A stretch of 26,559 nucleotides of DNA from a virus, in the IMG/VR virus record IMGVR_UViG_3300046466_000181, positions 1-26,559 of that record. One strand, 5' to 3'. How positions within the stretch are numbered: the first letter of the stretch is position 1; each line of letters opens with the position of its first letter. The notes under the pieces were generated by a model that saw only the letters and a list, made by a program, of their open reading frames with translations, had not been told where the DNA came from and searched no databases. Below are positions 3,164 through 10,015 of this stretch, piece by piece. The translations under genes and the position numbers were made by a program.

Positions 3164-3279
3164 TATCTATTCCAAAAAAATATTCTTTTCCACCAACTTA
3201 ATTTAACTTTAACTGGCTCAACAACACACTGACATTTTTTTTTCTCAAATTTACAATCCATACATATATTTAAACTCAT
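3163..3279 (-). CDS. Cys- and Trp-rich mini-protein (38 aa)
   Basis: ATG at 3279 overlaps the stop of the upstream gene (ATGA), and the stop at 3163 overlaps the next start (TAATG). A good ribosome site (GAGGAG) lies ahead, so the frame is tightly fitted between its neighbours. The peptide begins MSLNICMDCKFEKKKCQC: four Cys arranged CxxC then CxC, able to hold one metal ion. The C-terminus KLSWWKRIFFWNR is aromatic and basic, as in membrane-surface helices. I know of no named family. The fitting boundaries and binding motif make it a credible gene. Confidence 0.65.
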   Translation of the reverse strand: MSLNICMDCKFEKKKCQCVVEPVKVKLSWWKRIFFWNR

Positions 3280-3917
3280 TTTTTCTCCTCAATATTATAA
3301 AACATTTTATCAGAATCTTCTGTTACCCAATCAGATCCTTCACAGTCCCAATACGTAGTTTGTACGCTATAATCGGGCCAATCATTATCTGTAGTATAAC
3401 TGTTCACATGCCAAATGATTCTGTTGTTTGGCTGCGCTGCATAATTACCATTTTTTAATGCCATTATGTGTGCACACTTGTGCTCTTGCGGAATTTCAGA
3501 ATGTTCCGTATTTAGTATATTAGTCTCTGGATGTGCCCAGTCAACAGTAAATAAGTATTGACCTGAATAAAATTTTTTATCTTTACCAATATACTTGCCG
3601 TCTATACCAGCCAACCAATCAAAACAATGGACACTAGGATAATAACTAAAGCAGTTCCACAATTCGAGTTGATCCACTCGCATATCAGGCACGTCTTTTC
3701 TTTCAAACTCTTTTTGAAAGAATGCTGAAATAGGTAGTCTATAAAAGACTGCACCATTTGGTAACATGCAATGAAATAAGATTGCACGACCTGAAATAGA
3801 GCTAAGACCAAAGATAACACAGTCACTAGACTGTCCTTTATTTTTTTTAAGATCATAGAGATACTCCCTTCTTATTTTACAATAAATTGGCGGTATGTTA
3901 GCATTTAAATAAGCCAT
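3276..3917 (-). CDS. Conserved phage hypothetical protein (213 aa)
   Basis: Begins MAYLNANIPPIYCKIRREYLYD. No transmembrane span or signal is evident, and the protein is rich in aromatic residues (Trp, Tyr, Phe). Recognisable blocks are CVIFGLSSISGRAILFHCMLP (about residues 33-53), QLELWNCFSYYPSVHCFDWL (about 83-102) and NNRIIWHVNSYTTDNDWPDY near the C-terminus. It resembles a conserved protein encoded near the replication genes of many marine phages. I know no function for it. It lies six bases after the polymerase gene, without a clear ribosome site, and probably depends on coupling. The compact globular composition suggests a soluble cytoplasmic protein. Confidence 0.75.
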   Translation of the reverse strand: MAYLNANIPPIYCKIRREYLYDLKKNKGQSSDCVIFGLSSISGRAILFHCMLPNGAVFYRLPISAFFQKEFERKDVPDMRVDQLELWNCFSYYPSVHCFDWLAGIDGKYIGKDKKFYSGQYLFTVDWAHPETNILNTEHSEIPQEHKCAHIMALKNGNYAAQPNNRIIWHVNSYTTDNDWPDYSVQTTYWDCEGSDWVTEDSDKMFYNIEEKK

Positions 3918-6109: not shown

Positions 6110-7533
6110 AGTTTGTATCCCTTCCTCTGCATTTTTGCTTTTAGTTTATATAGATTATTTTTTGCACGAGTGACTGCTACGTACCAAACTCTATGTTCTT
6201 CGTCCTCCTTGTCTTGACTTTTCTTTATTGCTTTTAATATTTTGTCTCCTAAATCTAAAGATAATATAACATTATCTTGTTCACCACCTTTAATCGCATG
6301 AATAGTTGATGTCCAAATTCTTGCAGGTTTACTTAAATCTTCCCCTGCTTCAATTAAACCTAAAAGATAATCCTTATCTTCTTGTTCTATATTTTGAAAC
6401 GCTTCGTACCAATCTTTTTTTAAATTAAATTCTTCCGTACCTGTGTATTCTTTTATATCTTTAATATCTTTTTCTTCTAATTTAATATCTTGCTGTAATA
6501 GTTCATAGTTTTTTATGGCTTTGTATGCCCGAACCCTGACGCTTTTTCCCCTATTACTTTCGAAATATAAATTTTTTTTCTTTAGTTGCTCTTCTATCTT
6601 CAGTAATCTTGATACTGTTCTAGTTAATATTAACCACTTACCCTCAGTTAAATCTACCTGGTCCAGGTTAGCAATCTCCTCACAGTTTCCTTCATAGTCT
6701 CTTGGATAATATTTTTTTTCTTTTCGGTTACCCACAATGTTTTCTATACACATTTGTGATTGTTCCTGTATGGCTTTTGATATTCTTCTAGATTTATGTA
6801 ATACTTTTTCTTTTGCAGGTTCATCAATAAATCTATTCACATCAGCGCCCGCCCAGGCAAAGATAGCCTGATCATCATCTCCTGCAAGATAAATATCTTT
6901 ACTTTTTTCTTTTAACTTGTCGTAAAGCTTCCATTGCAATGGTGATAGATCCTGAGCTTCATCAATAAATACTGTATTGAACTCCGGAATCTTACTATCT
7001 TTCTTTAGTAACATTTCAATCATATCATTAAAGTCCATCATTTTTTTCTTGTCTTTGTACTCTAAGTAATTTTTATATATGTGATCTAACATAGACCATT
7101 CAACTTCTTTTGAGTTATGTTCTCCACGGTCAAACTCTTCTCTTATATCTACACATCTATTGATAGCTCTATGTATCAACTGAAAGTATGGATTATCACA
7201 AGTTAAAAAGTGAGATTCTTCTTTGTTATATCTATCGTAGTATTTTACTTTTACATTTAATTTTTTACCAAAGACTTCGTAATGATATGGTTGCATCACA
7301 TCATCTTCTTTTAAACTTAAAATATTAAATGCAAATGAGTGAAGTGTTTGAAAGTATGGTAACTTCTTATCTTCTGCTGGCATTCTTTTCTTTGCTTCAC
7401 CTGCAGCTTTTTTAGTAAATGCAAAGTAACCTATTTTATGTAATGGTGTCCCAACTCTTGCGTAGGCTCTGGCTCTTGATATCAATCTATATGTTTTACC
7501 CGTGCCAGGCGGCCCATATATCTTGTATACCAT
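6106..7533 (-). CDS. UvrD/PcrA-like superfamily 1 DNA helicase (475 aa)
   Basis: Motif set of an SF1A 3'-5' helicase: Walker A GPPGTGKT (7-14), motif Ia AFTKKAAGEAKKRM (38-51), motif II DEAQD (191-195), motif III GDDDQAIFAWAGAD (218-231), motif V TIHAIKGGEQDNV (410-422) and motif VI VAVTRAK (452-458). The length is shorter than host UvrD (about 720), which means compact 1B/2B subdomains. The ATG overlaps the stop of the primase gene (TAATG). As no DnaB-like helicase is seen in this window, this is a plausible replicative helicase of the phage, or it may act in recombination. All key catalytic residues are present. Confidence 0.95.
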   Translation of the reverse strand: MVYKIYGPPGTGKTYRLISRARAYARVGTPLHKIGYFAFTKKAAGEAKKRMPAEDKKLPYFQTLHSFAFNILSLKEDDVMQPYHYEVFGKKLNVKVKYYDRYNKEESHFLTCDNPYFQLIHRAINRCVDIREEFDRGEHNSKEVEWSMLDHIYKNYLEYKDKKKMMDFNDMIEMLLKKDSKIPEFNTVFIDEAQDLSPLQWKLYDKLKEKSKDIYLAGDDDQAIFAWAGADVNRFIDEPAKEKVLHKSRRISKAIQEQSQMCIENIVGNRKEKKYYPRDYEGNCEEIANLDQVDLTEGKWLILTRTVSRLLKIEEQLKKKNLYFESNRGKSVRVRAYKAIKNYELLQQDIKLEEKDIKDIKEYTGTEEFNLKKDWYEAFQNIEQEDKDYLLGLIEAGEDLSKPARIWTSTIHAIKGGEQDNVILSLDLGDKILKAIKKSQDKEDEEHRVWYVAVTRAKNNLYKLKAKMQRKGYKL

Positions 7534-9155
7534 TAAATAATATCCTCTTCATCTTCAAATGAAACAATCTCATCTATTTCTTTTTTTTCTTCAAAGACAT
7601 ACAAAGGAACTCTTAAAACTTTTATTGGTGGAAAATAATCATCATTCTTATCCTTACCAGGAAATCTTTTTGGTTTGTTAAACAATGCTTTTTTATCTTT
7701 ATCATCACTCTTAAATAATTCTTTTATCATGTAAGAAGTTCTTTGTGGATCTGTTTTCCATTCTTTTGTTTTTAAATCAGAATAAAATTCATCATAAACA
7801 AACCATGCATAGTTTTCATCCACTAAAGGTTTACCACTTTCAAAAGATTTATATGTGGTTGCTCTTGGTCCATATACATATTTCTCTAGATTCTTTAATA
7901 AAATATCCATAGGACTTGTGCCTTCTACTGGTTCAATAGTTTCTACTTTTTCTTTATCAAATAAAAGCTTCATTATTTCAATGAAGTCATTACCTTTTAT
8001 ATTTGGTGGAACTACAAATGCTTGCTCCATCATCAAAGCTCTTAATGCTTTCTGACTTTCTAGTTTGTAAATATCTTTTGCATGTACCTGAACTGTCTCA
8101 CCATCTTCTCTTTCAACAGTAAACTTCCATTCTGGTGTAGGTTTGTAATTTATTTTTTGCAACGCTGATATTCTAGGCCACACAGGTTTATCGTCAGATA
8201 AAATTCCAAACTTTCTTTTTAAACAAACTGGTTTAACACACACTGGTGATAGTAGTTCTCCATTACATTGATAACCTTTTGTTTCTTTATCCCAACTTTT
8301 AATTTTTGTTTTAACGTGATCATCTGTCCACTTAGAATCAAACTTAAAATAATTTCTAGCTGCTTCAACTATCTTATCTTTCCAGTTATCTTTGTATTTC
8401 TTTTTAGCAAACACCATATAGTTATATAAAAATCTATCTCTATCATCTGTCATTATTTCTTTTGTAAGAACTCCAAGACAAGGTGGACCATCTTTAAACT
8501 CTTCACCACTACCTTGTAGTTCATCTGAAATAATTTTTTCCTGTATATCTTTTAATTGTTTTTTATTTACTGAATTAAGTTCAATACATTTTACAAACAT
8601 GTCTAAAGACATTTCAGTTCCATCAGGTGCTAATGCTCTTCTACCATCTGCATTGTATGGAAGATTTATAAAGTTACCGTTTGCTTTATTACCTTTTTCA
8701 TCGGAAGAACGTAAGTTTGTTTGCTTAGGAAATATCTCTGTCTTGATGTTTAGTTTAAATACATAGAGCATCTGCTCTAGAAACTGTCTTATCTCTATTG
8801 CTTTTACAAATTCAGTGGTGAACACATATAAATGTAGTCCACCACTTTTGGACAGGACAGGGATGATTGGTAAACTTTTTTCTTGTATTGTTTTTAAATA
8901 AAATTCTCTATCAATTGGATACTTGTCTACATCGATTGCACCAAATCTTGCAGTGCCATCGTCTGTACATGGTTGTATACCAATTGATTTAACTCCTGTT
9001 AAATGATCCTCGTAGTCTTTGTCTGTAACTTTTAACTGTGACCATTCATGTTTAAATTTTTTCTTACCTGTCTCTGGATCTACGTACCCTTCGTTTATTT
9101 TACAGACACCATAATTACGTGTTAAGCCAGTAAAATACTTTATAAAATCTTTCAT
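7533..9155 (-). CDS. Archaeo-eukaryotic-type primase (PrimPol-like) with four-Cys C-terminal domain (540 aa)
   Basis: The N-terminal domain (about 1-200) is an AEP fold: AIDVD supplies the metal-binding D75 and D77, SKSGGLHLYVF (102-112) carries the conserved H108, and NFINLPYN (161-168) closes the active site as in phage and TOTE-type primases. A helical second domain follows with Cys at 226, 297, 306 and 311, in the PPC...C...C...C order that recalls the Fe-S domain of the primase large subunit (PriL/PriCT-like). This second assignment is inference. The remainder (320-540) is unassigned and ends in EDEEDII. The gene lies between a possible nucleic-acid-associated protein and the helicase. 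Translation begins at a modest AGGA site just after a structured leader. Confidence 0.85.
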   Translation of the reverse strand: MKDFIKYFTGLTRNYGVCKINEGYVDPETGKKKFKHEWSQLKVTDKDYEDHLTGVKSIGIQPCTDDGTARFGAIDVDKYPIDREFYLKTIQEKSLPIIPVLSKSGGLHLYVFTTEFVKAIEIRQFLEQMLYVFKLNIKTEIFPKQTNLRSSDEKGNKANGNFINLPYNADGRRALAPDGTEMSLDMFVKCIELNSVNKKQLKDIQEKIISDELQGSGEEFKDGPPCLGVLTKEIMTDDRDRFLYNYMVFAKKKYKDNWKDKIVEAARNYFKFDSKWTDDHVKTKIKSWDKETKGYQCNGELLSPVCVKPVCLKRKFGILSDDKPVWPRISALQKINYKPTPEWKFTVEREDGETVQVHAKDIYKLESQKALRALMMEQAFVVPPNIKGNDFIEIMKLLFDKEKVETIEPVEGTSPMDILLKNLEKYVYGPRATTYKSFESGKPLVDENYAWFVYDEFYSDLKTKEWKTDPQRTSYMIKELFKSDDKDKKALFNKPKRFPGKDKNDDYFPPIKVLRVPLYVFEEKKEIDEIVSFEDEEDII

Positions 9156-9170
9156 TCCTATCCCTGTTTT

Positions 9171-9227
9171 TAAGGCGCTTCCAGTCTCCCTTCAGCGCCT
9201 TAGCTTGGCCAGCATTCCCAGAAGGGA
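9171..9227 (-). ncRNA. Candidate H-type RNA pseudoknot in the primase leader
   Basis: In the 74-base gap between two replication genes, the leftward transcript can form a perfect 9-base-pair stem TAAGGCGCT/AGCGCCTTA (plus-strand arms 9171-9179 and 9194-9202). The 14-base loop contains GAAGGGA (plus 9187-9193 complement). That loop segment is perfectly complementary to TCCCTTC just after the upstream stop (plus 9221-9227). Order upstream strand, stem, loop strand, stem gives an H-type pseudoknot. A competing hairpin TTCCC-AGAA-GGGAA (9215-9228) could replace the second helix. The spot is G+C-rich in an AT-rich genome. It ends 15 bases before the primase start codon, so translational control is plausible. 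There is no U-tract, so a terminator is unlikely. Confidence 0.5.
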
Positions 9228-9229
9228 AA

Positions 9230-10015
9230 CTAGATAATGTCTTCTTTACTTTTAGTTGATGCAACCTGTTCATACTTAGGTTTTGCTGCACCTGCAAAAG
9301 CTTCTTCTTGAAGTTTTTTTGCAGTTTCATAGATAGATAAATCTTCTGGCTTAGATACATCTAGCATTCTAACCTTGCTAGGTTTGTAAACGTGCCAGCT
9401 TTTATCTCCCCAGTTTTTACCAACTGTTTTAAGATTAAAGACTGCTGCATAGGCTGCAGGTTTAAATGAACCTTGAGCATCTTTTACTCTAAGATTATCA
9501 ATTAAATCATTTAACTCTCTACCTGGAGTTAAATTAGATGATCTCATAGTGATGACTGCTCTTCTTGCTTCACCGTTGATTAATGCCAGTACAAAGAAAT
9601 ACATAGTTTTTTCACAGTAATTACCATTAGATAATCTGTATTTACCATTTTTTTCTTCTACCGCATCTGCAGGTGGATTGATGTGAGTACCGACTGGTGC
9701 TGCCGCACTGTCTCCTCTTTCTTGCCATTCTGGGTATCTAGTGTGAGTATGACAAATAACTACTTCTAGTCCTTTGTCTCCATCAATTAAACTACCCATA
9801 CTGCCAGAATATATCATCCCAGGTTTCGCACCTTCAACGTATTTAGCGTTTCTTGTGTTACACTCAGGTGATAACTGGTGAAGAATTTTTAAAATCACAG
9901 TTGATTTATCACTGGACTTTAACTCTTCTGTGCCTTTTCCTGCATCGGATCTTAAGCTTACTGGTGATAGTGCACCTGCACTATTCTTTTGAACCATATC
10001 TGTATTATTACTCAT
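9230..10015 (-). CDS. Conserved phage replication-module protein, ssDNA-binding candidate (261 aa)
   Basis: Starts at ATG 10015 behind AGGAG. The N-terminal 35 residues are polar and probably disordered. The central part (KYVEGAKPGMIYSGSMGSL, HTHTRYPEWQERGD, GNYCEKTMYFFVLALINGEA, FKPAAYAAVFNLKTV) looks like a beta-barrel-type fold. The C-terminus is a charged tail ending in SKEDII. Position directly upstream of primase, helicase and polymerase, and the tail, point to an ssDNA-binding or recombination-mediator role. I recognise it as a conserved protein of marine phages but cannot prove the activity. The tail resembles the EDII end of the primase. Confidence 0.7.
   Translation of the reverse strand: MSNNTDMVQKNSAGALSPVSLRSDAGKGTEELKSSDKSTVILKILHQLSPECNTRNAKYVEGAKPGMIYSGSMGSLIDGDKGLEVVICHTHTRYPEWQERGDSAAAPVGTHINPPADAVEEKNGKYRLSNGNYCEKTMYFFVLALINGEARRAVITMRSSNLTPGRELNDLIDNLRVKDAQGSFKPAAYAAVFNLKTVGKNWGDKSWHVYKPSKVRMLDVSKPEDLSIYETAKKLQEEAFAGAAKPKYEQVASTKSKEDII

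Follow-up and report, generated by a model that had tools for sequence, protein, structure and literature searches.

The window analysed, the whole 26,559-nt IMG/VR virus record IMGVR_UViG_3300046466_000181, raised the question of why 74 bases (9229->9156, minus strand) separate two of its replication genes and which of the two genes the intervening sequence serves. The upstream gene (9230..10015, minus strand; stop TAG at 9232-9230) matched Pam3_Gp34 (PF23977, E 2.4e-36) and probably codes for a phage single-stranded-DNA-binding protein (SSB), and the downstream gene (7533..9155, minus strand) coded for an archaeo-eukaryotic-type (AEP) primase (PF22548, E 8.7e-15; phrog_21866 primase, E 4.4e-166). 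The minus-strand gene order was gp32-, gp33-, and gp34-like genes (Pam3 naming) followed by the AEP-type primase, a UvrD-like helicase, and a family-A DNA polymerase. Pelagibacter phage HTVC027P is a relative of the window (65.6% DNA identity over 8700-9700) in which the gp34-like gene is annotated as hypothetical. A first-pass annotation of the window had singled out the gap on the grounds that nearly all other operon junctions are zero to a few bases, which was partly right, but gaps of 112, 68, and 30 nt are also present. Elsewhere in the window, positions 3276-3917 matched a PHROG labeled ferredoxin (E 2.5e-76), and this label disagrees with the PurM annotation of the polymerase-adjacent gene of HTVC027P, if the genes correspond.

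On the minus strand, the gap opened right 3' of the SSB stop with a small hairpin (P0, UUCCC-UUCU-GGGAA, 9215..9228), followed by the middle element GCUGGCCAAGC with the palindromic core UGGCCA (9203..9213), a larger hairpin (P2, 9171..9202), and a spacer to the primase start containing an SD-like AGGGA/AGGA (9156..9170). P2 comprised a stem (9202-9194/9179-9171), an internal loop (9193-9191/9182-9180), the pairs G9190.U9183 and G9189-C9184, and a GAGA tetraloop (9188-9185), and at -14.7 kcal/mol its stem outranked every other 30-nt hairpin of the window's minus strand. The pairings described in the first-pass annotation were present in the sequence, namely the 9-bp perfect stem (9202-9194 with 9179-9171), the 7-bp complement between UCCCUUC (9227-9221) and GAAGGGA (9193-9187), and the small hairpin after the upstream stop (9228-9215). 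With added G.U pairs the arm-loop pairing reached 13 bp, taking in the upstream stop codon, and energy prediction on the window sequence favored this fold over all others. By itself the window sequence was only slightly more stable than its shuffles (z -2.23).

A P2-type hairpin was identified in 188 of the 255 distinct gp34/primase junctions (185 by definition and three with a G.G pair) among the matches listed, a count that is partly circular since the first hairpin finder required pairing plus one of a few tips. The junctions came from primase-anchored and hairpin-pattern scans that yielded 387 loci in which 70 nt or more preceded the primase; the set was drawn partly from the hairpin-pattern scan, each scan supplied its best 80 loci at most, and the fractions are no census. 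Among the first 53 loci the "loop" was constant in most and the upstream arm was variable. Loci L212 and L218 carried GCGAGAGU in place of the window's GGGAGACU, a G-C to C-G exchange indicating that the constant 8-mer consists of a G.U pair, a G-C pair, and a GAGA tetraloop. This exchange ruled out an octaloop with an open GGGAGACU and corrected the open 14-base loop of the first-pass annotation, which really ends in these same pairs and tetraloop. The conserved plan was a covarying G+C-rich stem, a purine internal loop, a G.U pair, then G-C or C-G, and the GAGA tetraloop. Stems varied widely (e.g., GGGCGUC/GACGCCC, GGGGCGG/CCGCCCC, and AACGU/ACGUU), and the internal loop was mostly GAA/GGA or related purines, being fully base-paired with an unchanged tip in L038, L203, and L204. 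The hairpin was also kept in HTVC027P, whose primase is 45% identical to that of the window.

Alignment of the gap across related phages, a check suggested by the first-pass annotation, gave compensatory changes at all modelled P2 pairs (9/9) and a pseudoknot pairing that was not kept. In the alignment termed A5 (91 thinned hairpins), whose covariation is likewise partly circular through the requirements of the finder, 97.7% of cells were paired, 193 cells carried double changes compared to 64.3 when shuffled, and slid registers paired in at most 49.5%. A5 was derived from A4 by dropping the rows for L274 (cut incorrectly where a contig ends) and L366 (shifted by one column), and the L274 row is retained in the 93-row and 155-row hairpin tables. 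RNAalifold, unaided, returned the same P2 structure. Because the finder demanded pairing, the covariation test was repeated with the tip located by sequence alone, requiring G, GAGA, and U but no pairing, which gave 188 distinct 40-mers and 106 after thinning. The inner pair was complementary in 106/106 of these (57 G-C, 49 C-G, and 0 mismatched), and the stem columns held 668 Watson-Crick, 37 G.U, 2 A.C, and 35 other combinations; eight of the 106 thinned rows paired at fewer than five of seven positions in the fixed register and, by eye, paired after a one-base shift. The occurrence of G.U far above A.C indicates selection on the transcript (mRNA) strand, and P2 is a transcript-sense RNA structure under strong selection. 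A DNA-level element such as a replication origin or primase loading hairpin would suit a site between replication genes with adjoining palindromic elements, but is highly improbable, as both the stem counts and the conserved G.U pair point to selection on the transcript strand. The claim that the gp34-primase gap holds a functional RNA structure is therefore strongly supported by the covarying hairpin in relatives, and it may act as an RNA stability element, the other role proposed in the first-pass annotation.

The H-type pseudoknot and the switch between alternative pairings, also put forward in the first-pass annotation, were not upheld as conserved features. The energy prediction for the window speaks for them, as do complementary runs of nine bases in the window, L004, L010, and L015, but across 119 junctions the loop-arm complementarity was at shuffle level, the longest loop-to-upstream run having a mean of 4.96 compared to 4.72 when shuffled and reaching seven in 13 of the 119, several from the window's own clade. 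HTVC027P has the hairpin without the upstream arm, the arm covaries inside its own hairpin P0, and the connecting lengths would be too short for the full 13-bp and 9-bp helices to coexist, such that a pseudoknot or two-state switch is very unlikely even if restricted to the window's own clade. The small hairpin on the same bases had been read as a competitor of this pairing; its presence was confirmed, but rather than competing it is a conserved element itself. A P0-site hairpin of at least 5 bp right after the stop was found in 51 of 73 distinct upstream segments compared to a mean of 4.2 and a maximum of 10 in shuffles, its stems differed among relatives (UUCAC/GUGAA, UUCUC/GAGAA, and CUUCUU/AAGAAG), and P0 is a covarying small hairpin and a conserved element of its own. 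Palindromes of at least 8 nt between the stop and P2, some of them P0 itself, occurred in 36 of the 73 segments compared to a mean of 7.2 in shuffles. Those between P0 and P2, at 9203-9213 in the window and at the same place in relatives, included CTTGCAAG, GTAGCTAC, TGGCCA, TCCTAGGA, and GTTTGTACAAAC. Stop-codon readthrough or frameshifting is unlikely, because the gap takes lengths of all three frames and both TAG and TAA occur as the stop. A mini-ORF inside the window gap was seen by eye in the near clade only.

A search with the covariance model R1, likewise suggested at the outset, gave P2 as the single match in the window (48.6 bits, E 1.9e-11), along with copies in related records. One copy each was present at E <= 1e-4 in 15 of 18 long records, two were without a match, and one had a weak match elsewhere. 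In GTDB, 8 of the 56 contigs with a primase relative had P2 at E <= 1e-4. These carriers came from six SAR11 or Pelagibacteraceae assemblies (four or more of which are named as single-cell genomes), one Marinimicrobia bin, and one Porticoccaceae bin, and probably represent phage contigs of infected cells or bins. Several weaker candidates were set aside: in 023Pt_psg01 the match to R1 (E 0.056) lay away from the SSB/primase junction, L467 (E 0.0084) was distant from the primase match on its alphaproteobacterial contig and is probably due to chance, and the pattern matches L094 and L155 had no primase or gp34 match, with weak R1 scores over part of the model. Rfam 15 gave no match at the gathering score in the window or in nine loci (L390, L393, and L397 among them), a permissive Rfam search of 9000-9400 returned just two matches to plant microRNAs at chance level, both lying off P2, and no described counterpart was found in the open-access literature searched. 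P2 is real, widely conserved, and undescribed in Rfam 15 and the open-access papers searched.

The assignment of gp34 drew on structure and on the termini of its relatives. An AlphaFold model built from 81 relatives had a pLDDT of 85.5, compared to 37.5 for the single-sequence fold. With this model, a second-look structural aligner ranked a phiC31 integrase-recombination directionality factor (RDF) fusion first (Z 8.1), followed by gp32 cores (Z 6.4 for RB69, 5.9 for T4, and 5.2) and PRD1 P12 (4.8), with cellular SSBs also below RB69/T4 gp32; the best Foldseek match was a polymerase alpha-RPA entry (E 1.4e-3), and the gp34 profile had no match among PDB sequences. T4 gp32-like phage SSBs typically carry an acidic C-terminal tail with an aromatic tip. 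Many gp34 relatives ended in the SSB-like VPF, IPF, TPY, or SPY (e.g., DEVPF, ENIPF, and DSTPY), and the C-terminus in the window was KEDII, with some clades also being without the aromatic tip. Based on the structural matches to gp32 cores and SSBs and on the SSB-like tips in many relatives, gp34 is probably a phage SSB, with middling structural scores (Z 5-8).

The position of P2 relative to the next start codon bears on control of the primase. Spacers between P2 and the start measured 5-39 nt among relatives, the short ones being 87% A+U, and 78 of 160 had no SD match, mostly those of 5-14 nt. As many spacers are short and without an SD, the hairpin must touch the ribosome-binding site of the next gene. 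In HTVC027P a GGAGG lies within the hairpin, 13 nt before the ATG, and an SD hidden in the hairpin was rejected as a general rule since other hairpins have UUAA at this place. Among known examples of replication proteins controlled through RNA, the main ones come from T4-like coliphages. A translational operator of the primase, in which a phage protein (primase or SSB) on the hairpin tip would block ribosomes at the primase start, would account for a hairpin located where the SD belongs, for the SD-less and A+U-rich spacers, and for a near-fixed tip next to an SSB-like upstream protein, and has precedents in T4 gp43 and gp32, which repress their own messages through RNA structure (PMC3014915, PMC535899). 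The T4 gene 32 autogenous operator is likewise a structured RNA by an A+U-rich stretch and start codon in a phage SSB message (PMC3014915), but it is a pseudoknot upstream of gene 32, whereas P2 lies downstream of the SSB gene, has no conserved pseudoknot, and is unrelated in sequence. The T4/RB69 gene 43 (DNA polymerase) operator is also a short hairpin with a conserved tip 5' of a replication gene start (PMC3014915), but its tip is -UAAC- compared to the GAGA with G.U of P2, and the gene is different.

Loci in which the downstream gene differs argued against such an operator. SSB-anchored scans, in which the hairpin finder still required tip and stem, showed a GAGA-type hairpin in 77/77 readable loci in the first and 31/76 in the second among the matches listed, 9-31 nt downstream of the SSB stop. 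No primase relative was present downstream in 23 of the 153 readable SSB loci (among the matches listed), and in the 21 of these 23 with enough sequence the next gene coded for a 480-493 aa protein (e.g., L507, L517, L526, and L589). The SSBs on either side of this replacement were 82-90% identical and had the same hairpin family, comparisons to L532, itself of the replaced kind, being excluded. The 480-493 aa protein had no Pfam, PHROGs, or NCBIfam match worth the name and no BLAST similarity to the primase in the one pair compared. The family has invariant LRLDxxxDxDxDN and SSH residues, which by eye we take to resemble PrimPol motifs, and judged from its sequence the replacement may be a distant AEP primase. 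For this reason the hairpin might still act on any primase that comes next, and no GAGA-type hairpin was seen beside a clearly non-replication downstream gene.

Ten primase-anchored loci, nine of them distinct because L389 and L391 are identical in sequence, had a small gene lying between SSB and primase; an eleventh candidate, L061, was a frame-shifted reading and was not counted. The strong hairpin in these 10 loci followed the SSB stop by a few bases, and none of its strength was found before the primase, the hairpins there being weaker (-11.8 kcal/mol in L379 and -10.9 kcal/mol in L389/L391). The inserted-gene hairpins were of another loop class than GAGA, mostly with a UCCCCC loop, and that of L388 was a plain terminator. 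As the hairpin stays after the SSB gene in these loci and persists before an unrelated downstream gene, a primase operator is conceivable but doubtful, and the control of primase proposed by the first-pass annotation is weakened in favor of an element that travels with the upstream SSB-like gene. A second hairpin class was observed in L550-L612 and L371-L404, mostly 4-13 nt past the SSB stop, with very different stems and a UCCCCC(C) loop. CCCC occurred in the loop of 28 of 37 distinct non-GAGA hairpins, and some of these loops seem by eye to be complementary to the SD of the next gene.

A transcription terminator or attenuator between SSB and primase is improbable. P2 resembles intrinsic terminators and intercistronic stabilizing hairpins in having a G+C-rich stem past a stop codon, 12 of 28 plain GNRA/UUCG hairpins of sister phages in the group carry T-runs at the same place, the plain hairpins have similar GGGGCGG/CCGCCCC stems, and a textbook terminator follows the SSB gene in L388. 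However, UUU right after the stem was present in just 11 of 157 GAGA-type hairpins and absent in 146/157, the window stem is followed by AAAACAGGG without a U run, and the purine internal loop and near-fixed tip set P2 apart, a weak conserved G.U beside the tip being unexpected in a terminator.

The explanation that we prefer, with about even confidence, is that P2 is an intercistronic mRNA hairpin of the 3' side of the SSB gene that sets SSB output relative to the downstream replication genes; it is the simplest one to cover both flanking genes. SSB is needed in large amounts and primase is not. The hairpin would form after the ribosome leaves the SSB stop codon and could then obstruct 3'-5' exonucleases and/or keep ribosomes or polymerase from entering the next cistron, ending the SSB unit, protecting its message, and holding back the next gene, with the outcome of much more SSB than primase from one operon. 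The near-fixed tip (G.U, G-C/C-G, and GAGA) would be read by a protein or RNase, since a passive stem would not keep a weak G.U and a single tetraloop. A more specific and rather unlikely version is an undescribed RNA family that serves SAR11 and related marine phages in gauging free SSB: SSB, or a different protein of replication, would recognize the GAGA/G.U tip after the SSB stop and so set the SSB-to-primase ratio, the module having at least three tip kinds (GAGA, C-rich loop, and terminator) and a constant place beside the SSB gene.

Pelagiphages rank with the most abundant marine viruses. That many marine phages, mostly of SAR11 type, retain the hairpin after the gene of their probable SSB suggests an undescribed element controlling the amount of replication proteins. 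Its compact near-fixed tip, the repeated G-C/C-G exchange, and a carrier isolate (HTVC027P, on SAR11 strain HTCC1062) make post-transcriptional control in such phages directly testable, and the P2 RNA model offers a means to locate and annotate SSB genes in many unannotated marine phages.

On a tree of 123 primases (FastTree only), the tip type switched at least 15 times on well-supported branches. In the pairs L103/L256 and L065/L299 the primases were very close (short branches) and the hairpin type was exchanged, with alike flanks in L103/L256, which suggests fast turnover or recombination of the hairpin. A longer structured gap before the primase start, with a repeated segment like GCAGCGAGTAGGCCCCACC, was observed in L390, L393, L397, L426, and L428.
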